From: Solirubrobacterales bacterium
Lineage (GTDB): Bacteria; Actinomycetota; Thermoleophilia; Solirubrobacterales; Solirubrobacteraceae
Length of the DNA: 53,590 bases
NCBI GenBank assembly: GCA_019244745.1
Contig: JAFASF010000255.1
Span: 1-53,590, forward strand
Reading direction: 5' to 3'
Of this stretch, positions 33,924 to 48,426 are shown one piece after another. The notes beneath the pieces are model-generated. The model worked only from the letters and a program-made list of their open reading frames with translations. It was not told the origin of the DNA and did not search any database. Position 1 is the first letter of the stretch; each line of letters starts with the position of its first letter. The translations under genes and the position numbers were made by a program.

Positions 33924-34880
33924 ATGGCGCGGCCCATCGTGCTCGGCGTGGTCGGCGATTCCGGCGCCGGCAAGACGACGCTCACCCGGGGACTCATCCG
34001 GGTCCTGAGCGACGAGGAGGTGACGCGGATCAGCGCCGACGACTATCACCGCTACGAGCGCCGCGAGCGCCGGCAACTCGGGATCACGCCGCTGCATCCG
34101 GATGCCAATCACCTGGACGTCCTCACCCAGGACCTCCTGCACCTGCGGCGCGGCGAGCCGATCCTCAAGCCGGTCTACGACCATCGTGACGGGACGCTGA
34201 AGCGGCCCGTGTACGTGAAATCGGCGCGGTTCCTGGTCCTCGAGGGTCTGCTCAACTTCCACACCGAGACGCTTCGCGGCGCCCACGACGTGCGCGTGTT
34301 CCTGGCGCCGCCGGAGGAGCTTCGCCGGGCCTGGAAGCTCAAGCGCGACTGCACGCGCCGCAGCTACACGACCGACGAGGTCCTCTCAGAGCTCGATCAC
34401 CGCGAGCGTGACGCGGCGCAGTACATCCGCCCCCAGCGCGAGCACGCCGACATAGTGGTGAGCTTCAAACGGGCGAGGACCGACGACCCGTCGCACCTCG
34501 ACGCCGATGTCGTCCTGTGCGACACGCTGCCGCATCCCGATCTCTCACCGCTCATCGATGGGACCGGCGACGGCCCGACGCTGATCCGCCACGAGGGCGA
34601 TCTGCTGCTCAGGATCCCCGGCGACATCGACCCGGAGCACGCTGCCGCGCTCGAGGAGGCGGTGTGGGCGCGGATGAGCTTCGCGAACCACCTGCGGGTG
34701 CGCCGGCTGGGGGAGTTCACCGTCGGAATCGACCTGCGCCGGTCGGACTCGCTGGCGCTGGTGCAGCTGCTGGTCCTCTACCACCTGGTGCGGGCCCGAG
34801 CGCACGTGACCAGCGGCAGCGAGCCGGAGCGGACCGAGCGGCGCCACGTCACGGGGGCCGACTCGGCGTTGCACGTGTAG
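33924..34880 (+). CDS. prk: Phosphoribulokinase
   Basis: GDSGAGKTTL P-loop, SADDYHRYERRERRQLGITPLHPDANHLD, PVYDHRDG, EGLLNFHTE, RDCTRRSYTTDEVLSELDHRERDAAQYIRPQREHADIVVSF. Confidence 0.92.
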   Translation: MARPIVLGVVGDSGAGKTTLTRGLIRVLSDEEVTRISADDYHRYERRERRQLGITPLHPDANHLDVLTQDLLHLRRGEPILKPVYDHRDGTLKRPVYVKSARFLVLEGLLNFHTETLRGAHDVRVFLAPPEELRRAWKLKRDCTRRSYTTDEVLSELDHRERDAAQYIRPQREHADIVVSFKRARTDDPSHLDADVVLCDTLPHPDLSPLIDGTGDGPTLIRHEGDLLLRIPGDIDPEHAAALEEAVWARMSFANHLRVRRLGEFTVGIDLRRSDSLALVQLLVLYHLVRARAHVTSGSEPERTERRHVTGADSALHV

Positions 34881-35865: not shown

Positions 35866-37011
35866 TCAGGCTGCCGACGCGAGCACCGGTTCCGTGGCGA
35901 GGACCGCGTCCAACGCCTCGATCACCCTCTCGGCTACCTCGAGGGTGGCGTTGACTCCCATCAATCCGATCCGCCAGATCGGCGGCGCCGTTGGTCCGAG
36001 ACCACCTCCGATCTCGATGCCATGCTCCCGCAGCATCCGCTGCTGCACGCGCTTGCCGTCGACCCCCTCGGGAACGTGGACCGCGGTGAGCGGAGCGAGC
36101 TGGCGCTCCGGATCCGCGAGCAGCTCGAGATCGCGGGCGCGCAGCGTATCCTGGAGGAAGCGGCCGGCGCGTTCGTGGCGCTCCCAGCGCTCCGGCAGCC
36201 CCTCGATCACCACCTCCCGCAGCGCCTCGTGCAGGGCGTAGATCTGAAGGATCGGCGCGGTGTGGTGGTATACGGCAGGGCGCTCGGTCCAGTAGCGCTC
36301 GAGCGCGAGGAGGTCGAACGAGAACGGCACGGGCGCGCGGCGCGAACGGATGCGCTCGAGCGCCCGCTCTGACACCGCGACCGGCGACAACCCGGGCGGC
36401 GCGCCGAGGCACTTCTGCGTGCACGAATAGCCGTAGTCGATCCGCCAGGCGTCGAAGTTGAGCGGGACGCCGGCGAGCGAGGTGACGCAGTCGGCCATCA
36501 GCAGGACGTCGCGATCCGCTCCCAACTCGGCGCCGAGTTCGGCCAGCGGGTGCTCGATGCCGGTCGAGGTCTCGGCGTGCACCACCGCGAGCAGCCTCGC
36601 GTCCGGATGCCGGTCGAGAGCCTCGAGCAGGCGATCGTTGGGAACGTGCTCCCCGAGCTCGGCCTGCACCTCGACTACCCGGGCACCGTGGCGGCGCGCG
36701 ATCTCAACGATCCGCGCTCCGAAGAAGCCACAGACCGCGACGATCGCTACATCGCCCGGCTCGATGAGGTTCGCCAGCCCTGCCTCCATCCCCGATGTGC
36801 CGGTCGCCTGGAGCGGAAGCACCAGGCCGCCGTCGGCGCGGTAGGCGGCGCGCTGCAGCGCGACGACCTCCGACAGGATCTCGTGGAGGTCGGGGTCGAG
36901 GTGGCCGAGCATGGGCTGCTGCATCGCGGCGAGCGCTGCCGGCGAGACGTTGCTCGGGCCAGGGCCGCACAACAGCCGCTGGGGCGGATTCAAAGCCGTG
37001 GAGGTTGTCAT
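35866..37011 (-). CDS. Alanine/serine-glyoxylate aminotransferase-family protein
   Basis: LCGPGPSNVSPAALAAMQQPMLGHLDPD, LQATGTSGMEAGLANLIEPGD, GYSCTQKCLGAPPGLSPVAVSERA. Confidence 0.93.
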   Translation of the reverse strand: MTTSTALNPPQRLLCGPGPSNVSPAALAAMQQPMLGHLDPDLHEILSEVVALQRAAYRADGGLVLPLQATGTSGMEAGLANLIEPGDVAIVAVCGFFGARIVEIARRHGARVVEVQAELGEHVPNDRLLEALDRHPDARLLAVVHAETSTGIEHPLAELGAELGADRDVLLMADCVTSLAGVPLNFDAWRIDYGYSCTQKCLGAPPGLSPVAVSERALERIRSRRAPVPFSFDLLALERYWTERPAVYHHTAPILQIYALHEALREVVIEGLPERWERHERAGRFLQDTLRARDLELLADPERQLAPLTAVHVPEGVDGKRVQQRMLREHGIEIGGGLGPTAPPIWRIGLMGVNATLEVAERVIEALDAVLATEPVLASAA

Positions 37012-37166
37012 GAGGTGCCAGGCTAACGGCTCGACACCTAAGTGAAAAGCAAAGATTTGTCTGTGGGACTGAACGTATGATCTATGTATTTACGTAACCC
37101 AATCTCTTAAACAAATTCATCTATTGAGGCTTGCGCGCCGTCCAACGGATCGCTCTACTGCCGGGC
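37012..37166. promoter_or_regulatory. AT-rich divergent promoter region
   Basis: Compositional drop to AT-rich (..GATTTGTCTGTGGGACTGAACGTATGATCTATGTATTTACGTAACCCAATCTCTTAAACAAATTCATC..) between divergent genes. Confidence 0.5.
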
Positions 37167-38144
37167 ATGAGCCGCCTGCATCGAAGCGAGCTTGCGGTCC
37201 CGGGCAGCAACGTCCGGATGCTCGAGAAGGCTCCCGGGCTGGGAGCCGACATCGTGATGCTCGACCTCGAGGACGCGGTTGCGCCCGACGACAAGGAGCA
37301 GGCGCGCGTCAACGTGATCGCGGCGCTGCGCGAGCAGGACTGGTCCCGATGCTCGGTGTCGCTGCGGATCAACGGCCTCGACACGCACTATTGCTATCGC
37401 GACCTCGTCGAGGTGGTGGAGCAGGCCGGCCGGCACCTCGACACGATCATGATCCCCAAGTGCAGCGGCGCCGGCGACGTTCATCTGGTCGCGACGTTGC
37501 TGACTCAGATCGAGGACGCCATGCGACTCGAGCGGCGGATCGGGATCGCGGTGCTGATCGAGACGGCCATGGGAATGTTGCGCTGCGAGGAGATCGCGCG
37601 GGCCTGCCCGGAGCGGATGGAGGCGATGGTGTTCGGCGTGGCAGACTACGCAGCGTCGTTGCAGAGCCACACCACTTCGATCGGCGGCGCGAATCCCGAC
37701 TACGCGATCCTCACCGACGACCGCGAACGGCACTGGGGCGACCAGTGGCACTACGCGCTGTCGCGGATCGCGGTGGTCTGCCGGGCCTACGGGCTGCGCC
37801 CGATCGACGGCCCGTTCGGCGACTTCACCGATGCGGACGGCTACCTGGCGTCCGCGCGGCGCGGCGCCGTGCTCGGCTACGAGGGCAAGTGGGCGATCCA
37901 TCCCTCGCAGATCCCGCTCGCCAACGAGGTGTTCACCCCAGATGAGCACATGGTTGAGAAGACCCAGCGGATCATCGCGGCGATGAAGGAAGCGGCCGCG
38001 CAGGGGAAGGGGGCGGTGTCGCTCGACGGCCGTTTGATCGATGCGGCGTCGATACGGATGGCGCAGACGCTGCTGGCCAAATTCGAGCAGATCGAGGCGC
38101 GCGACGAGCCGGTCCCGCTGCGCGCACGAGCGGCAACGGGCTAG
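37167..38144 (+). CDS. CoA ester lyase (HpcH/HpaI/CitE family; malyl-CoA-lyase-like)
   Basis: SELAVPGSNVRMLEKAPGLGADIVMLDLEDAVAPDDKEQAR, LIETAMGMLRCEEIA, VFGVADYAASL, GYEGKWAIHPSQI. Confidence 0.93.
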   Translation: MSRLHRSELAVPGSNVRMLEKAPGLGADIVMLDLEDAVAPDDKEQARVNVIAALREQDWSRCSVSLRINGLDTHYCYRDLVEVVEQAGRHLDTIMIPKCSGAGDVHLVATLLTQIEDAMRLERRIGIAVLIETAMGMLRCEEIARACPERMEAMVFGVADYAASLQSHTTSIGGANPDYAILTDDRERHWGDQWHYALSRIAVVCRAYGLRPIDGPFGDFTDADGYLASARRGAVLGYEGKWAIHPSQIPLANEVFTPDEHMVEKTQRIIAAMKEAAAQGKGAVSLDGRLIDAASIRMAQTLLAKFEQIEARDEPVPLRARAATG

Positions 38145-38146
38145 CC

Positions 38147-38674
38147 ATGCGCGAGAACGCCCCCGAGCTCCACCATGCCTGCCGGGCGCTGCTGCCCGGC
38201 TACGGGGCGACCCGCAGCGAGACCGAGCGCATCGGCGTGCTCACGCACGCGTGCCTCCGCGCGCCGCTGCCCGAGCGAAACGGCGGCCCGGTGCCGAAGG
38301 CGGCCGCCGCGCTCGATGAGGGCGCGCCCGGGGCGTTCATCGTCTCCGACGTCCAGCAACCATCCGACGTCCTGTGCGCGTTGTGGCTGGCGCGCCGGAG
38401 CGGTCTGTTCTCTCCGCCGTACGCGCCGCCACCGGGCACGGGCCGAGCGTCCACGGTCGAGCTCGTCCCGGAGTTCGGGCGGGGCCGCGCGCTCGAGCGG
38501 GCCACTGAGACGATGGGGTTGCTCTACGGCAACGCCGCTTACGCCGAGCAGCTGCGCGCGCGGGGACACCGGCAGAAAGTGATGGTGACCGAGCGTGACG
38601 TCTCGGCGCGCGAGCGCCTGGCGCGCCAGGCCGCGGTGCGGGCCATCGATCTGCATGTGTCCGAGGCACGCTAA
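38147..38674 (+). CDS. Stand-alone PEP-carboxylase-like internal fragment (catalytically incomplete)
   Basis: AFIVSDVQQPSDVLCALWLARRSGLF resembles PEPC YVISMxxxPSDVLAVxLLxKEAG; VELVPEFGRGRALERATETMGLLYGNAAYAEQLRARGHRQKVM resembles VxPLFETLDDLxxAxxVMxxLLxxxxYRxLIxxxQMVM; expected GYSDSxKD is degenerate. Confidence 0.72.
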   Translation: MRENAPELHHACRALLPGYGATRSETERIGVLTHACLRAPLPERNGGPVPKAAAALDEGAPGAFIVSDVQQPSDVLCALWLARRSGLFSPPYAPPPGTGRASTVELVPEFGRGRALERATETMGLLYGNAAYAEQLRARGHRQKVMVTERDVSARERLARQAAVRAIDLHVSEAR

Positions 38675-39543
38675 GCCCGGGCGTGCTCGATAAACGCGCG
38701 CGCCAGAGGGGAGTCATCGCCGGCGCGGACGATCGCGATCAGCTCGGCGCGCGGCGCGCCCGCGACGGGGCGGTAGGTGACGCCGTCGAGCGCCAGCCTG
38801 GTTACCGAGGCGGGGACCAGCGACACCCCGATGCCGGTCGCGACCAGACCGATGATCGTCAGCATCTCGGGGGCGTACTGAACCACCTGCGGGTGCGTGC
38901 CCGGCGCCGACATGCTGCTCATCAGCAGGTCGTGAAAGCCCGGTGCCTGGCTGCGGGGGAACATCACCAGGGGCTCGGAGCCGAGCCGGTGCAAGGGGAT
39001 GCGGCGAAGCGAGGTCAGCTCGTGGCCGGCCGGCAGCGCGGCCACGGTTCGTTCGGTCAGCACGGTCTCGGTACGCACTTCGGGGATGTCGTCGATCGGT
39101 GGGCGCACCAGCCCGACGTCGACCACGCCGGCGCTGATCGCGCGCAGCTGCTCGATCGTCGAGCGCTCGTGCAGCTCGATCTCGACGCTCGGGCGCGCGG
39201 CTCGGAACCGCTGCACGATCCCGGGGACGATCGACAAGAGCGCGGAGCCCACGAAGTTGACCCTCAGCCGGCCGGTCTGGCCGGCGTCGATCCGCCGGGC
39301 GGTCTCCACGGCGCCGTCGAGCTCCGCCAGCAGCGCGCGGGCGTCGCGCAGGAACGCCTCGCCCGCCGGGGTCAGCTCCACCCGGCGGCGGGTGCGGGCC
39401 AGCAGGGGGTATCCGAGCTCGTCCTCGAGCTGGCGGATCTGCTGGCTCAGCGGCGGCTGCGAGATGTGCAGGCGGACCGCCGCGCGCCGGAAGTGCAGCT
39501 CCTCGGCGACGGCGACGAAATAGCGAAGCTGGCGTAGTTCCAC
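38671..39543 (-). CDS. LysR-family transcriptional regulator
   Basis: ELRQLRYFVAVAEELHFRRAAVRLHISQPPLSQQIRQLEDELGYPLLARTRRRVELTPAGEAFL. Confidence 0.95.
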   Translation of the reverse strand: MELRQLRYFVAVAEELHFRRAAVRLHISQPPLSQQIRQLEDELGYPLLARTRRRVELTPAGEAFLRDARALLAELDGAVETARRIDAGQTGRLRVNFVGSALLSIVPGIVQRFRAARPSVEIELHERSTIEQLRAISAGVVDVGLVRPPIDDIPEVRTETVLTERTVAALPAGHELTSLRRIPLHRLGSEPLVMFPRSQAPGFHDLLMSSMSAPGTHPQVVQYAPEMLTIIGLVATGIGVSLVPASVTRLALDGVTYRPVAGAPRAELIAIVRAGDDSPLARAFIEHARA

Positions 39544-39603
39544 GGGCAGCGGACCCCTTGTCCGCCGGCCACGCGGGCCGGCGGGCTGATTCACAGTACA
39601 AAT

Positions 39604-39626
39604 CAATGTTGCCGAATTCGATATTG
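39604..39626. promoter_or_regulatory. Candidate LysR operator dyad
   Basis: CAATgttgccgaattcgatATTG in the divergent lysR/soxD intergenic region. Confidence 0.3.
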
Positions 39627-39693: not shown

Positions 39694-40032
39694 ATGTCGT
39701 ATGTACTGAGCTGCCCCAACTGCGGGGTTCGCGAGGTCACCGACTTCGGGTTCGGAGGCGAGGTCTCCGCCCGGCCTAAGTCGCGCCCGACGTTCCGCGA
39801 GCTCAACACGTACAACTACTTCCGCCGCAACGTGGCCGGCGTCCAGCGCGAGTGGTGGTTTCACCGCTCCGGCTGCCGCGCGTGGTTCATCGCCGAGCGC
39901 AACACGCTGACCAACGAGGTGCTGTTCACCGCGCGGCCCGAGGAGGTGGGCGAGGCCGGCCCCGGTGGCCGGGGGCAGGGCGGCCCCGATGGCCGGGGGG
40001 AGGACGGGCCCGACCGCCCGGCAGCCGCATGA
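39694..40032 (+). CDS. soxD: Sarcosine oxidase delta subunit
   Basis: SCPNCGVREVTDFGFGGE, NYFRRNVAGVQREWWFHRSGCRAWFIAERNTLTNEVL. Confidence 0.93.
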   Translation: MSYVLSCPNCGVREVTDFGFGGEVSARPKSRPTFRELNTYNYFRRNVAGVQREWWFHRSGCRAWFIAERNTLTNEVLFTARPEEVGEAGPGGRGQGGPDGRGEDGPDRPAAA

Positions 40033-42890
40033 GCCGCCTCCCCGAGCAGCCCGGCGAGAAGATCTCGCGTCAGCGGGTCGTTCGCTTCAAGTTCGACGGC
40101 ACGATCGTCGAGGCGTACGAGGGCGACACGATCGCCTCGGCGCTGTACGCGGCCGGTCGGCGGACCTTCTCGCGGAGCTTCAAATACCACCGCCGACGCG
40201 GGTTGATGTGCTGCTCGGGCCAGTGCCCGAACTGCATCGTGGCCGTCGACGGCGCTCCGGGGGCGCGAGCCTGCACCGAGCCGGCGCGCGAGGGGATGCA
40301 GGTCGAGCACCTCAACGCGCGCCCCGGCCTCGAGTTCGACGCGATGCGCGCCACCGATCTGGTGGGCGGCCCGTTCACTCCGCCGGGCTTCTACTACAAG
40401 ACGTTCATCAAGCCGCGGCGGTGGTGGCCGCTGTACGAGAAGATCCTGCGCCACGCTGCGGGGCTGGGCCGTCTGCGAGAGGAGCAGCAGGAGCGTGAGT
40501 GGCGGACCGAATACCGGCGCCGTCACGCCGACCTGCTCGTGGTCGGTGGCGGCGCTGCCGGCCTGCGGGCCGCGAGCACAGCCGCGCGGCTCGGCGCCGA
40601 CGTGGTGCTCGTCGACGAGGGCCCCGAGCCGGGCGGCCGGCTGCTGATCGACGGGCGCGGCGAGCGAATCGCGGCGCTAGTCGGCGAGGTTGAGGAGGCC
40701 CGGGTGGAGACCCTGTCGCGGGCCTCGGCCCTTGGCTACTTCGACGGGATGGTTCCCGTGTGGCAGGGCGACACCTTGCACCAGGTCCGCGCCCGCCGGC
40801 ACGTGTTCGCCACCGGGACGATCGAGCAGCCGCTGGTGTTCGCGGGAAACGATCTTCCCGGCGTGATGCTCTCCGACGGCGCCCGGCGGTTGATGGCGTT
40901 GTATTCGGTCCGACCCGGTACGCGCGCGGTCGTCGCGACCACCTCGGATCGGGGGCTCGAGGCGGCGATCGCACTACACGAGGCTGGAGTGGAGATCGCG
41001 GCCGTGGCCGACCTGCGCTCGATCCCGGGATCGCCCGCCGGGACGCTCAAGCGGCTGGGGATCGAGGTGATGCCCGCCCACACCGTCGTTGAGGCGCGCG
41101 GGCGCAAGGCCGTCACCCAGGCCGTGCTCCAGCGCGTGAGCGGGGGCGGCGAGGAGCGCACGTTCGATTGCGATCTGGTCGTCGTCTCCGGGGGCACCGT
41201 GCCCGCCTCGTCGCTGCCCCTCCAGGCCGGCGCTCAGAGCAGGTATGACAACTCGCGCGGGAACTTCGCGCTGACCGAGCTGCCCGAAGGTGTCCACGCC
41301 GCCGGCGAGGTGGCCGGCGTCGAGGAGTTCGAGGCCGTGCTGCGCTCCGGGGAGCTCGCCGGCCTTGAGGCCGCGCATGCGCTCGGGCTCGGCGACGCCG
41401 CATCCCGCGGCAGAGTCGATGAGCTGCGCGGCCGGCTTGCGCTCGCGCGCGACCAGCGCGCCGCGGTGGCCGTGCCTCCGCCGGTGGCGGGCAGCCGACG
41501 CGGCAAGTGCTTCGCCTGCCTGTGCGAGGACGTCACGAGCAAGGACATCCATCTGAGCATCGAGGAGGGCTACGACTCGATCGAGCTCTCCAAGCGCTAC
41601 ACCACGGTCACCATGGGCCCGTGCCAGGGCCGCATGTGCCAGCTGCCCGCGGTCCGGCTGATGGCGCAGGAGACCGGGCAGAGCCTCGAGCAGGTCGGCA
41701 CGACCACCGCGCGCCCTCCATGGGTCTCCGTGCCGATGGGGATCCTCGGCGGCCGGCCGTTCGAGCCGGCGAAGCGCTCCTCGATCCACGGGCGCCACCG
41801 CGAGCTCGGCGGCAACGTCAAGTGGGCGGGCGACTGGCGCCGGCCGTACGACTACGGCGACCCTCGGGGCGAGGCGCTCGCGGTGCATCAGGCGGCCGGG
41901 CTGATCGACGTCTCGACGCTCGGCAAGCTCCTGGTCCGGGGCCCCGACGCCGGCGAATTCCTCGATCGCCTGTACCCCAATCGCTTCTCGAACCTGAAAC
42001 CGGGCCGGATCCGCTATGGCGTGATCAGCTCCGACGCCGGACGAATCGTCGACGACGGGACGATCTGCCGCCTCGACGACGAGTCGTTCTACGTGACCAC
42101 GACTTCGAGCGGCGCCGGCGCGGTCGAGGAGTGGTTCTCCTGGTGGCTGGCCGACTGGGCGATGGGCGTCCACCTGACCGATCTGACCCAGGGACTGTCG
42201 GCGGTCAACCTGGCCGGGCCGCGCGCGCGCGAGATCATGGCCAAGGTCACCGGTCTCGACTGCTCGAACGAGGCGTTCGCGTATCTCGACGGCAAGCGCG
42301 CCGCGATCGCGGGCGTGGCGTGCCTGATCCTGCGGATCGGGTTCGTGGGCGAGGTCGGATACGAGATTCACTTCCGCGCGGCGTACGGCGAGCACGTGTG
42401 GGATGCGCTGCTCGAGGCCGGCGCGGAGTTCGGCATCCGCCCCTTCGGACTCGAGCCGCAGCGGATCCTGCGCCTGCAGAAGATGCACATCCTGGTCGGC
42501 CAGGACACCGATTCCGAGTCGACGCCGTTCGGCGCTGCGATGCCGTGGATCGTCAAGCTCGATAAGGATGAGGACTTCATCGGCAAGTGGGCCCTCGAGC
42601 ACTACGCGCAGACCCCATCGGCGACGTCGCTGGTCGGGTTCACGCTGCCCGACGGGTACGTGCCCACCGAGGGCGCAGTGGTGCTCGACGGGGCCGGATC
42701 GGCGGCCGGTCAGGTCACGAGCGCGCGCTACTCGCCCGTGCTCGGGAAGGTGATCGGCATGGCCTGGGTGCCGAGTGCGCTGGCCCGCGACGAGGCGCGC
42801 GTCACGCTCTCGGACGTCGGCCGGACCGTGACCGCCGAGATCCAGACCAAGCCGTTCTACGACCCCGACGGGGAGGTCCTGCGCTCATGA
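40029..42890 (+). CDS. soxA: Sarcosine oxidase alpha subunit
   Basis: N-terminal ferredoxin-like CCSGQCPNCIV, FAD/NAD domain VVGGGAAGLRAASTAARLGADVVLVDEGPEPGG, CFACLCEDVTSKDI, C-terminal GcvT domain; ATGA overlap with soxD. Confidence 0.95.
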   Translation: MSRLPEQPGEKISRQRVVRFKFDGTIVEAYEGDTIASALYAAGRRTFSRSFKYHRRRGLMCCSGQCPNCIVAVDGAPGARACTEPAREGMQVEHLNARPGLEFDAMRATDLVGGPFTPPGFYYKTFIKPRRWWPLYEKILRHAAGLGRLREEQQEREWRTEYRRRHADLLVVGGGAAGLRAASTAARLGADVVLVDEGPEPGGRLLIDGRGERIAALVGEVEEARVETLSRASALGYFDGMVPVWQGDTLHQVRARRHVFATGTIEQPLVFAGNDLPGVMLSDGARRLMALYSVRPGTRAVVATTSDRGLEAAIALHEAGVEIAAVADLRSIPGSPAGTLKRLGIEVMPAHTVVEARGRKAVTQAVLQRVSGGGEERTFDCDLVVVSGGTVPASSLPLQAGAQSRYDNSRGNFALTELPEGVHAAGEVAGVEEFEAVLRSGELAGLEAAHALGLGDAASRGRVDELRGRLALARDQRAAVAVPPPVAGSRRGKCFACLCEDVTSKDIHLSIEEGYDSIELSKRYTTVTMGPCQGRMCQLPAVRLMAQETGQSLEQVGTTTARPPWVSVPMGILGGRPFEPAKRSSIHGRHRELGGNVKWAGDWRRPYDYGDPRGEALAVHQAAGLIDVSTLGKLLVRGPDAGEFLDRLYPNRFSNLKPGRIRYGVISSDAGRIVDDGTICRLDDESFYVTTTSSGAGAVEEWFSWWLADWAMGVHLTDLTQGLSAVNLAGPRAREIMAKVTGLDCSNEAFAYLDGKRAAIAGVACLILRIGFVGEVGYEIHFRAAYGEHVWDALLEAGAEFGIRPFGLEPQRILRLQKMHILVGQDTDSESTPFGAAMPWIVKLDKDEDFIGKWALEHYAQTPSATSLVGFTLPDGYVPTEGAVVLDGAGSAAGQVTSARYSPVLGKVIGMAWVPSALARDEARVTLSDVGRTVTAEIQTKPFYDPDGEVLRS

Positions 42891-43654
42891 GCTTCGAGTT
42901 CCTGCACCCCGAGGCGGTGGCGAACGATGCCTGGGCCCCGATCGCGCGCAGCCCCATGGAGCGCCGCGCGCGGGCCTGTGGGGCTCGGTTCGAGGTGCGC
43001 GAGGGCTGGAGCGTCGCCGTCGGATACGGGTCCGCCGAACACGATGACGAGGCGTGGCGGAGCACCGTCGGGTGGGCGGACGTCTCGCACCTCGGCAAGC
43101 TGGAGCTCCAGGCCTCGCCCGACGATCTGCGGACGATCGCCGCTGACGGAGCCGGCGGGGCCGGTGTGTCGTTGGAGCTCGGCCGGGCCACGCGCGCGGC
43201 CGGCGCCTGGTGGTGTCCGCTGTCTCAGGCGCGCGCGCTCGTCGTGTGTGATCCGGGTGTGGCCGCGGGTTTGCGCGAGCGCTTGTCCGAGGCGGCCGCC
43301 GGCGCCTCGGCCCCGCCGGCGAGCGTGACCGACGTGACCACCGCTTTCGCCGCTATGACGCTGGCAGGACCGCACGCGCGCGAGGTGTTCGCGCGCTTTT
43401 GCGCGATCGATCTGCGGCCTTCGGTGACGCCGGTCGCGGGCCTCCGCCCGGGTTCGATCGCCCGGCAGCCCGGGATCGTGCTGCGGGAGGCGGAGGACCG
43501 GTTCCTGATGCTGTTCGGGTGGGCCGTCGCCGAGTACATGTGGACCGTGGTCGACGACGCGGGGTGCGCGCTCGGTGGCCGGCCCGTCGGCGTGGACGCG
43601 CTCGCCGCGCTCGGTCGCGCCGCCGAGGAGTCCGGGGTGCCGTCGCATGCTTGA
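42887..43654 (+). CDS. soxG: Sarcosine oxidase gamma-type subunit (GcvT-like)
   Basis: GWADVSHLGKLELQ, TTAFAAMTLAGPHAREVFARFCAIDLRP; position between alpha and beta; ATGA overlap. Confidence 0.82.
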   Translation: MSFEFLHPEAVANDAWAPIARSPMERRARACGARFEVREGWSVAVGYGSAEHDDEAWRSTVGWADVSHLGKLELQASPDDLRTIAADGAGGAGVSLELGRATRAAGAWWCPLSQARALVVCDPGVAAGLRERLSEAAAGASAPPASVTDVTTAFAAMTLAGPHAREVFARFCAIDLRPSVTPVAGLRPGSIARQPGIVLREAEDRFLMLFGWAVAEYMWTVVDDAGCALGGRPVGVDALAALGRAAEESGVPSHA

Positions 43655-44864
43655 CCTGTTCCGCCGGCGACGGATGTGGCGCCGGCAGCGCGACCTCAAG
43701 GACTCCTACGACGTGGTGATCGTCGGGGGCGGCTCGCACGGGCTCGCCGCCGCGTACTACCTGGCCAAGGAGCACGGGATTCGCGACGTGGCGGTATTGG
43801 AGAAGCGCTACATCGGCTCGGGCGCCGCGGGCCGCAACACCACGATCCTGCGCTCCAATTACAAGACGCCCGAGGGTGCGCGCTTCTACGACGCCAGCGT
43901 GAAGCTCTACGAGGGCCTCTCCGAGGACCTCAACTTCAACCTGCTGTTCTCGCAGTGCGGTCACCTGACGCTCGCCCACTCCGACCGCGCGATGTTCGTG
44001 ATGGCCAACCGCGCGGAGGTCAACCGGCTGGCCGGGATCGACTCGAGGCTCATCTATCCGGACGAGATAAAGCGGCTGGCGCCCGCCATGCAGGTCGACA
44101 ACCCGCATGCGACGTACCCGATCATGGGCGCGCTTTACCACCCGCCGGGGGGCATCATCCGCCATGACGCCGTCGTGTGGGGATTTGCCCGCGGCGCCGA
44201 CCGCGGCGGAGCCGAGCTTCACCAGAACACCGAGGTGCTCGGGATGGAGCGCGTCAATGGGCGCGTGTCGGAGGTGCGGACCAACCGAGGTACGGTCAAG
44301 GCGGGCGTGGTGCTCAACTGCACCGCCGGCTGGAGCACGCTGATCTGTGACATGGCCGGGGTCCCGCTGCCGATCACCACCCACATCCTCCAGGCCTGCG
44401 TCACCGAAGCGCTCAAGCCGCTGCTCGACGTGGTGATCGTCTCCTCGCAAATGCATATCTACATCAGCCAAACCGATCGGGGCGAGTTTCTGCTGGGGGC
44501 CGAGATCGAGCCCTGGACCACGTACCGGATGCAGGGCACCCTGAACTTCCTCCAGGAGGTGTCCCGCCACGCCATGGAGCTGTTCCCTCAGCTCGAGCGG
44601 GCACGACTGCTGCGAAGCTGGGCCGGCCTGTGCGACCTCAGCCCGGACTACAGCCCGATCCTCGGCCCGACCGAGGTCGAGAACTTCCACGTGAGCGCCG
44701 GATGGGGCACGTACGGATTCAAGGCGGCTCCGATCGTCGGCAAGACGCTCGCCGAACTGGTCGCCACGGGCCGCACGCCCGAGCTGATCGCGCCGTTCGC
44801 ACTGGAGCGTTTCTACGAGGACAGACTCGTGTCCGAGCTCGCCGCCGCCGCCGTCAGCCATTAG
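43647..44864 (+). CDS. soxB: Sarcosine oxidase beta subunit (FAD-dependent)
   Basis: DVVIVGGGSHGLAAAYYLAKEHGIRDVAVLEKRYIGSGAAGRNTTILRSNY, SWAGLCDLSPDYSPILGP, GWGTYGFKAAP. Confidence 0.95.
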   Translation: MLDLFRRRRMWRRQRDLKDSYDVVIVGGGSHGLAAAYYLAKEHGIRDVAVLEKRYIGSGAAGRNTTILRSNYKTPEGARFYDASVKLYEGLSEDLNFNLLFSQCGHLTLAHSDRAMFVMANRAEVNRLAGIDSRLIYPDEIKRLAPAMQVDNPHATYPIMGALYHPPGGIIRHDAVVWGFARGADRGGAELHQNTEVLGMERVNGRVSEVRTNRGTVKAGVVLNCTAGWSTLICDMAGVPLPITTHILQACVTEALKPLLDVVIVSSQMHIYISQTDRGEFLLGAEIEPWTTYRMQGTLNFLQEVSRHAMELFPQLERARLLRSWAGLCDLSPDYSPILGPTEVENFHVSAGWGTYGFKAAPIVGKTLAELVATGRTPELIAPFALERFYEDRLVSELAAAAVSH

Positions 44865-44884: not shown

Positions 44885-44929
44885 ATGAAAACCAGCGCCC
44901 AGATCGCCCAGAAGAGAGGGTCACGATGA
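44885..44929 (+). other. 14-codon mini-ORF, partial duplicate of the fhs 5' end
   Basis: MKTSAQIAQKRGSR* versus Fhs MKSSLEIAQEHELI; 41-bp offset; stop overlaps fhs start (ATGA). Confidence 0.75.
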
Positions 44930-46605
44930 AGTCAAGCCTCGAGATCGCCCAGGAGCACGAGCTCATCCCGATCGAGACGATCGCCGACCGGGTCGGCCTG
45001 CTCCCCGAGGAAGTCGAGCCCTACGGCCGATACAAGGCCAAGGTGTCGCTGTCGGTGCTCGACCGGCTGGCCGACGTTCCCGACGCCAAGATCGTGTGCA
45101 TCACCGGAATGACGCCGACCAAGGCCGGCGAGGGCAAGACCACGACGCTCGTCGGACTCACCCAGGGGCTCGGCGTGATCGGCAAGAACCCGGTGGCCTG
45201 TCTGCGCGAAGCATCGGTCGGGCCCGTGTTCGGAGTGAAGGGCGGCGCCGCCGGAGGAGGGCTCACGCAGGTGGTGCCCATGGAGGACCTCAACCTACAT
45301 TTCACCGGCGACATCCACGCGATCGGGGCCGCCAACAACCTGCTCGCGGCGATGATCGACGCCTCGATCCTCCACGGCAATCCGCACCAGATCGACGCGC
45401 TGCGGATCGGCTGGCGCCGCGCCGTCGACATGAACGATCGGGCGCTCCGCCAGATCGTGGTGGGCCTCGGTGGACGCCCCAACGGGTACCCGCGCGAGAC
45501 GGGCTTTGACATCACGGCGGCGTCCGAGGTGATGGCGATCATGGCCGTGGCGCATGACCTGGGCGACCTGCGCCAGCGGATCTCGCGGATCACGGCCGCC
45601 TACTCGTATGACGGCGGCAAGCCGGTGACTGCCGAGGACCTCGGGGCTGCCGGCGCGATGACCGTGCTGCTCAAAGACGCGCTCAAGCCGAACCTCGTTC
45701 AGACGCTCGAGGGACAGCCGGTGATGATGCACTGCGGTCCGTTCGCGAACATCGCCCACGGCAACAACTCGCTGGTCGCGGACATGGTCGGCATGAAGCT
45801 CGGCGATTACATCGTGACCGAGTCTGGATTCGGCTCGGACATGGGGATGGAGAAGTTCTTCGACATCGTCTGCCGGTTCGGGAAGCTGATCCCCTCGGCG
45901 GCCGTCCTGGTCACCACCGTGCGCGCGATCAAGCACCACGGCGGCGTGCCCGACGACCCCCGCGTGGACCGCGCCGCCAGCCTGAACGCGATCGAGGTGG
46001 GGATGGCCAACGTCCGTCGCCATCTCGCGATCATCAAGACGTTCGGCGTACCCGCGGTCGTCGCCGTAAACCGCCGGCCGGGCGACACCAACGAGGAGGT
46101 CGAGCTGGTAAAGCGGCTGTCGATGGAGGCCGGGGCTTTTGCCGCTCAGGTCAACGATGGCTTCGCGCGCGGCGGCATCGGCGCCGCCGACCTGGCCGAC
46201 GCGGTCGTCGAGGCGTGCGATCAGCCCAACAGCTTTCACCACCTGTACGAGGACGAGGCGCCGATCCACGACAAGATCGAGGCGATCGCCAAGCGCGTGT
46301 ATGGCGCCCAGGACGTCTACTACTACCCGGCCGCCGAGCAGAAGATCGCGCAGTTCACGCGCGACGGGCTCGCGGAATATCCGGTGTGCATGGCTAAGAC
46401 CCACCTGTCGCTGTCGGCGGATCCGCTGCTGCTAAACGCGCCCGAGCACTTCACGCTGCCGGTGCGCGACATCAGGGCCTACACCGGCGCGGGATGGCTC
46501 GTGCCGCTGTGCGGCGATATCACGCAGATGCCCGGCCTGGGCAAGACGCCGGCGGCGCTGAACGTCGACATCGACGCCGAGGGCCGGACGGTCGGCTTGT
46601 TCTGA
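44926..46605 (+). CDS. fhs: Formate-tetrahydrofolate ligase
   Basis: ITGMTPTKAGEGKTTTLVGLTQGL, CLREASVGPVFGVKGGAAGGGLTQVVPMEDLNLHFTGDIHAI, YTGAGWLVPLCGDITQMPGLGKTPAA. Confidence 0.98.
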   Translation: MKSSLEIAQEHELIPIETIADRVGLLPEEVEPYGRYKAKVSLSVLDRLADVPDAKIVCITGMTPTKAGEGKTTTLVGLTQGLGVIGKNPVACLREASVGPVFGVKGGAAGGGLTQVVPMEDLNLHFTGDIHAIGAANNLLAAMIDASILHGNPHQIDALRIGWRRAVDMNDRALRQIVVGLGGRPNGYPRETGFDITAASEVMAIMAVAHDLGDLRQRISRITAAYSYDGGKPVTAEDLGAAGAMTVLLKDALKPNLVQTLEGQPVMMHCGPFANIAHGNNSLVADMVGMKLGDYIVTESGFGSDMGMEKFFDIVCRFGKLIPSAAVLVTTVRAIKHHGGVPDDPRVDRAASLNAIEVGMANVRRHLAIIKTFGVPAVVAVNRRPGDTNEEVELVKRLSMEAGAFAAQVNDGFARGGIGAADLADAVVEACDQPNSFHHLYEDEAPIHDKIEAIAKRVYGAQDVYYYPAAEQKIAQFTRDGLAEYPVCMAKTHLSLSADPLLLNAPEHFTLPVRDIRAYTGAGWLVPLCGDITQMPGLGKTPAALNVDIDAEGRTVGLF

Positions 46606-47418: not shown

Positions 47419-48426
47419 TCAGGCGCCCGGGGCAGGCGCGCCGGCTGGGTCCAGCACCTCAGGATTGATGGGCGTCGGGGGCCGCTCGCGGCGCAGGACG
47501 GCGATCACGTTCTGAGCCGCGAGCACGGCCATAGCCGTACGGGTCTCGACGGTCGCCGACCCGAGATGCGGCACGAGGACGACGTTGTCGAGCTCGAGCA
47601 GCTCCGGATCGATCTCGGGCTCGCGCTCGAACACGTCGAGGCCGGCGCCGGCTAGCTCCTGGGTTTTCAGGGCGCGAGCGAGCGCCCGTTCGTCGACGAT
47701 CGGGCCGCGAGCGGTGTTGATGAGGTATGCCTCCGGGCGCATCTGGCGCAGCCGTTCTGCGTCGATCAGGTGATGGGTGTTTGGGGACAGCGGGACGTGG
47801 ATTGTGACCACGTCCGCTGTGCTCAGCAGCTCGTCGAGGGGTAGACGGCGTGCCCCGCCGAGCTCTGCCTCGACCTCTCTGGGGGCGGGGCGGCGACTGG
47901 TGTAGGCGATGTTCATCCCGAATGCCCGTGCCCGCCTCGCGGTGGCCTGGCCGATCGCGCCAAGCCCGATCACCCCGAGCGTCTTTCCCTGAAGCCCGGT
48001 GCCGAGCATGAAGAACATGTGCCACGACCACGGTATGCGGGCGCGCAGCAGGCGTTCTCCGTCTCCGAGTCGCCGCGTCACCGCGAGGATCAGCGCCAAC
48101 GCCAGGTCCGCCGTGGCGTCGGTGAGCACGCCGGGCGTGTTCGTGACGACCACCCCTCGCTCGGTGGCCGCGGCCACGTCGATGTTGTCGTAGCCCACGG
48201 CGACGTTGGCCACGCACCGCAGCTGGGGGCCGGCGGCATCGAGTAGCGGGCCATCGACGCGATCGTGCAGGAGCGTGACGAGCGCGTCGGCGCCCGACAC
48301 GGAGCGTTGCAGCTCGGTTCTGGTCAGGGGGCGGTCGTGGGGCGAGAGCCACATTTTCCCGGCGCGGGCTAGGAGCTCGAGCGCCGGGTCCGGGATCCGT
48401 CGCGTCACGACGATCCGCGGCTGCAC
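47419..48426 (-). CDS. D-2-hydroxyacid dehydrogenase (glyoxylate/hydroxypyruvate reductase type)
   Basis: VAVGYDNIDVAAATERGVVVTNTPGVLTDATADLAL, GLGAIGQATARRARAFGM, NTARGPIVDERAL, DVFEREPEIDPELLELDNVVLVPHLGSAT. Confidence 0.94.
   Translation of the reverse strand: MQPRIVVTRRIPDPALELLARAGKMWLSPHDRPLTRTELQRSVSGADALVTLLHDRVDGPLLDAAGPQLRCVANVAVGYDNIDVAAATERGVVVTNTPGVLTDATADLALALILAVTRRLGDGERLLRARIPWSWHMFFMLGTGLQGKTLGVIGLGAIGQATARRARAFGMNIAYTSRRPAPREVEAELGGARRLPLDELLSTADVVTIHVPLSPNTHHLIDAERLRQMRPEAYLINTARGPIVDERALARALKTQELAGAGLDVFEREPEIDPELLELDNVVLVPHLGSATVETRTAMAVLAAQNVIAVLRRERPPTPINPEVLDPAGAPAPGA

Follow-up and report, generated by a model that had tools for sequence, protein, structure and literature searches.

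PEP carboxylase (PEPC), malate thiokinase and malyl-CoA lyase act at successive steps of the serine cycle (PMC2948502). The window analysed here, a 53,590-nucleotide stretch of DNA from a soil actinobacterium of the Solirubrobacterales (class Thermoleophilia), resembles the serine-cycle gene set of Methylobacterium extorquens AM1 (PMC2948502) in that glyA, an sga-type aminotransferase gene, an mcl-like gene and ftfL lie in one region, along with a glyoxylate/hydroxypyruvate reductase-like gene. Unlike M. extorquens AM1, the genome to which the window belongs carries neither a working PEPC nor an mtkA orthologue by searches of its assembly, and its C4 branch is therefore incomplete as a standard serine cycle. 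A literature search for a serine-cycle-type pathway in Thermoleophilia or Actinobacteria found no paper. A nearer counterpart exists in G013, a genome of the same genus, whose full-length PEPC gene (ppc) occupies the position directly after mcl, within the same order of elements as in the window, and is about 58-60% identical to the window's copy over the shared segment. In the window, this position holds a 175-aa open reading frame (ORF) that corresponds only to codons 406-604 of the G013 gene. We are fairly confident that this ORF is what remains of a serine-cycle-type ppc, non-catalytic, decaying and still in its original place (Table 1).

Table 1. Coordinates of the probable ppc remnant, its junctions and the neighbouring genes in the window.
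Feature	Position	Strand	Remark
Class V aminotransferase (serine/alanine-glyoxylate type)	35866..37011	-	Divergent to mcl
Malyl-CoA-lyase-like gene (mcl; HpcH/HpaI-CitE family)	37131..38144	+	84% aa identity to the gene 5' of the full-length G013 ppc; stop TAG at 38142-38144
5' junction	38142..38149	+	mcl stop TAG, CC and ATG, fused to ppc codon 406/407
Probable ppc remnant	38147..38674	+	Equals codons 406-604 of the full-length serine-cycle-type G013 ppc; ATG at 38147, TAA at 38672-38674
Destroyed catalytic-loop site	38585..38617	+	MVTERDVSARE replaces MLGYSDAGKDLGYLSSQWAMYGAQE
3' junction	38671..38674	.	Remnant TAA overlaps the stop codon of the convergent lysR
LysR regulator	38671..39606	-	In place of the 3' part of G013 ppc and mtkAB; position common to G019
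Heterotetrameric sarcosine oxidase genes soxD, soxA, soxG, soxB	39694..44864	+	
Formate--tetrahydrofolate ligase	44926..46605	+	
Glyoxylate/hydroxypyruvate reductase-like 2-hydroxyacid dehydrogenase	47419..48426	-	

The earlier note had read the ORF, beginning 2 bp after the stop codon of the malyl-CoA-lyase-like gene, as a middle segment of PEPC, and both its placement and its homology hold up. The ORF matches the Pfam profile PEPcase (PF00311) above the gathering cut-off, which we took as the mark of a PEPC homologue (E=5.9e-10; 38.2 bits against 22.4), with residues 60-147 aligned to profile positions 490-570 of 919. The NCBIfam PEPC model gave a weak match only (E=1.1e-7; 30.4 bits against a cut-off of 815). 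Aligned with the full-length G013 ppc by tblastn (E=3e-47), the ORF is 51% identical over 201 columns, gaps included. When the PDB was searched with a profile that included 22 relatives, the matching region was residues 393-579 of E. coli PEPC; the ORF as a single sequence found no match there. A working PEPC has about 880-970 aa, an N-terminal TAHPTE region, a GYSDSxKD loop and an FHGRGG loop. At 175 aa, the ORF has none of these three motifs and also lacks the C-terminal half. Judged from its sequence, it is a true PEPC homologue that would be incapable of PEPC activity alone, as had been concluded earlier from a degenerate GYSDSxKD motif and the absence of TAHPTE and FHGRGG.

Among 61 related genomes searched for homologues, the best match, at 60% identity, lies in G013, inside a complete 896-aa ppc (L003:610-3300; public contig JAJZWB010000098.1, an actinobacterial MAG). 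That contig reads glyoxylate reductase-like gene, lysR, sga-type aminotransferase gene (on the opposite strand), mcl, ppc, mtkA and mtkB, where mtkA is named by its position and by a resemblance to the beta subunits of succinyl/malate-CoA ligases that falls below equivalog cut-offs. The end of ftfL and the gntR/iclR regulators are also common to this contig and the window. Thus, a relative has an intact orthologue at this very locus, in an mcl-ppc-mtkAB run, and the earlier view that a place beside mcl is the right one for ppc is borne out; G013 is the one genome that provides this intact syntenic comparator. G013 also carries a second, more distant ppc (G013:C174:9651-10259), 37% identical over the segment.

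Other relatives depart from this arrangement. In the mcl tree, G019 is the sister of the window's genome and G013 falls outside both. G019 has the same order of mcl, lysR and soxA, and its slot between mcl and lysR holds an unrelated ORF. This ORF (L096:1687-2133, minus strand) is 148 aa long, has high GC3 and is without a Pfam match. A wider survey for short forms covered 146 genomes of the family and found no second one, all other matches falling in open frames of at least 634 codons. A scan of viral contigs and of bacterial and archaeal genome contigs, of a kind that detects close relatives only, found no close copy of the ORF alone; run with a two-sequence alignment, it returned five confirmed loci, namely that of G013 and four PEPC loci from Thermoleophilia MAGs, and no short copy. 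Seven more genomes have close homologues of mcl; in none of them did the stretch fetched around mcl contain a ppc or mtkA, and hence the sga-mcl pair without ppc is common in the family. Because the gene is full-length in G013, the G019 slot holds an unrelated ORF and the other frames in the family reach at least 634 codons, the short form is, on this comparison, lineage-specific and not conserved. The earlier note had named, as a finding that would refute its reading, a full-length ppc here in close relatives and a strain-specific deletion in the window, and this is what G013 and the 146 genomes show.

How the segment was cut can be read against the G013 gene. Downstream of mcl, the window retains only the ppc slice, followed by the convergent lysR and the sarcosine oxidase block; the first 405 and the last ~290 codons are missing. 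At the 5' junction, ~1.3 kb of ppc 5' sequence is absent. The spacer 3' of mcl reads TAGCGATTCG in G013 and TAGCCATGCG in the window, where it runs directly into ppc codon 406/407, and so the ATG of the ORF may derive from the mcl spacer and not from a mutated ppc codon. At the other end, ppc homology stops at the FHGR of FHGRGG, which the ORF reads as VSEAR before its stop codon. Internally, the ORF has lost 10 codons and, further downstream, 14 codons, both in frame. The larger deletion sits in the GYSDSxKD catalytic loop, where VMLGYSDAGKDLGYLSSQWAMYGAQEALARQ of G013 has become VMVTERDV, a 14-codon gap and SARERLARQ. The earlier description of this motif as degenerate (VTERDVSARER) was right in that the motif is destroyed and imprecise in how, as substitution is combined with the 14-codon deletion. 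Through all differences from G013, the frame is retained with no frameshift and no stop.

The model best supported by these comparisons starts from an ancestor with a complete mcl-ppc-mtkA-mtkB run, in which loss or replacement of the PEPC/malate-thiokinase branch would have been followed by truncation and decay of ppc in place. Arrival of the lysR-sarcosine oxidase block by deletion or rearrangement would have removed the 3' half of ppc together with mtkAB, a second deletion would have fused the 3' end of mcl to ppc codon 406, and the internal deletions would have come afterwards. Any translation of the remnant would occur by coupling to mcl and would yield no PEPC activity. The frame would still be open mainly because stop codons arise slowly in DNA of 70% GC and the decay is recent.

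The earlier note had left the choice between a remnant and a repurposed domain, and had taken its clean start and stop codons and its tight operon position as signs that it is not decaying at random. Our results do not support the second point: the ATG was apparently supplied by the spacer, and neutral drift of the segment, simulated at an equilibrium GC of 0.7-0.9, left no stop codon in 42-64% of runs at 60 substitutions and in 22-53% at 130 substitutions. Since a drifting GC-rich copy stays open in ~20-60% of simulations, an uninterrupted frame says little in favour of function. The in-frame status of all the indels is mildly unusual, and it lies beside these counts, which concern substitutions.

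We then considered whether the segment could be a PEPC half-barrel that is translated together with mcl and survives as a folded protein without catalytic activity, binding an effector, acting as a scaffold or regulating mcl or the cluster. The start 2 bp after the mcl stop would permit translational coupling, and the frame has been kept through every indel. On the side of decay, the window's branch in the tree of the segment is about 7-fold longer than that of G013 (0.66 and 0.09 substitutions per site), whereas the same two lineages measure 0.09 and 0.11, respectively, in the mcl tree. The dN/dS to G013, obtained by uncorrected counting near synonymous saturation, is 0.45 for the ORF versus 0.16-0.33 for six neighbouring genes. 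Its differences per codon position (0.33/0.23/0.41) are flatter than those of its neighbours, with positions 1 and 2 relatively enriched. Taken at face value, the substitution pattern says that constraint was probably relaxed for part of the time and that evolution was not fully neutral throughout.

Where the changes fall is a point on the side of repurposing. Outside the catalytic loop, 4 of 30 sites conserved in PEPC are changed in the ORF (0-9% in pairs of functional PEPCs), whereas of the 7 aligned conserved sites in the catalytic loop and in FH, 6 have been lost. Changes are also concentrated in loops (41/66) relative to helices and strands (33/109; p=7e-5). This better retention of structural than of catalytic residues keeps a repurposed half-barrel in consideration. 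However, a recent truncation would also leave such a pattern, as most of the divergence would have arisen while the gene still worked; the kept scaffold and lost catalysis would thus fit recent truncation as well as a kept domain.

Structure prediction gave a similarly two-sided result. AlphaFold2, supplied with 22 aligned segments, returned a compact five-stranded alpha/beta half-barrel (pLDDT 88.6, pTM 0.86), and both ORF boundaries fall at the limits of barrel strands, so that a folded product is conceivable. All 50 Foldseek matches listed were PEPCs (TM 0.74-0.79 on the query). However, prediction from the ORF sequence alone gave a poor model (pLDDT 47), and the confidence of the first model therefore stems from the PEPC alignment and says nothing independent about folding. 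The predicted fold confirms ancestry, not independent stability. A partial barrel would, moreover, expose surface that is normally buried and hydrophobic.

Against repurposing also stands the distribution of the short form, which occurs in one genome and is absent from the G019 slot and from 145 other genomes of the family. Retention in place as a working domain, with no conservation behind it, is unlikely in our judgement, and quite improbable is its most specific form, a young, translated (beta-alpha) half-barrel, cut from PEPC with its scaffold retained and its catalytic loop gone, that would serve the neighbouring malyl-CoA lyase as, for instance, a subunit sensing a metabolite or binding a partner. 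As to the earlier choice, then, synteny with G013 and lineage specificity favour the remnant. A decaying remnant resembles ordinary truncated pseudogenes left by operon rearrangement in being an in-place slice that changes faster, has lost its catalytic motifs and is confined to one lineage. It is unlike them in having a frame open over 175 codons, which the GC-rich composition explains adequately.

Alternatively, the real genome might contain an intact ppc, with the short ORF a product of mis-joined or mis-binned contigs. The assembly is of metagenome type, with 463 contigs and ~91% completeness, and the rearrangement of the locus is deduced from comparison only. Statements about the whole genome rest on targeted searches, and an assembly so fragmented and incomplete may have failed to capture another ppc or mtk. 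Nevertheless, neither the PF00311 profile nor a full-length relative PEPC at a permissive threshold found any other piece of ppc in the assembly, full-length or otherwise; the lysR-sox flank order is independently present in G019; and a mis-join does not explain the slice's own internal deletions and substitutions. We reject this explanation as very improbable. Finally, although spurious ORFs abound in such GC-rich DNA (64 ORFs with 100 aa or more overlap 30-46 kb), the chance that the ORF is unrelated to PEPC is practically nil given the PF00311 match, the 58% identity to the syntenic G013 ppc and the Foldseek matches to an alignment-driven model.

The rest of the genome bears on what was lost. 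The best match to mtkA in the assembly covers only the first 238 of 403 residues, at 34% identity, which is what a succinyl-CoA ligase would be expected to show, and on this ground we regard the orthologue as gone from the assembly. A search limited to the PF05161 family found no MOFRL-type glycerate 2-kinase in the assembly, so that a standard serine cycle would lack another enzyme here, although glycerate kinases of other families are possible. A GTP-dependent PEP carboxykinase, a PYC_OADA-domain protein and RuBisCO are present in the genome, which would allow it to replenish C4 compounds and to fix carbon without PEPC.

Two features of the surrounding C1 cluster were observed in passing. 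Directly 3' of folD and glyA lies a gene for a phosphoribulokinase-family protein (33924-34880, plus strand; NF005655, 303.8 bits against a cut-off of 236; PF00485), and a RuBisCO large-chain gene lies elsewhere in the genome (G000:C395:9150-10073) and also in G013. The presence of a phosphoribulokinase inside a C1/serine-type cluster suggests a joint organisation of C1 metabolism and the Calvin cycle in this genome. The divergent pair of sga-type aminotransferase and mcl-like genes (35866-38144) is kept in many relatives (L096-L103) without nearby ppc or mtkA, among them a genus (g33) with assemblies of 1.2-2.1 Mb. This suggests that the pair has a glyoxylate-related role apart from the full serine cycle.

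In all likelihood, the ORF is what an abandoned metabolic pathway has left behind, an ordinary remnant of fairly recent date, and not a new protein. As such, its importance is modest: it would be the footprint of the dismantling of the PEPC/malate-thiokinase branch in one Thermoleophilia lineage, in which the sga-type aminotransferase/mcl pair stayed. If repurposing were true, the locus would instead show how a large enzyme of metabolism can give rise to a separate half-barrel domain.
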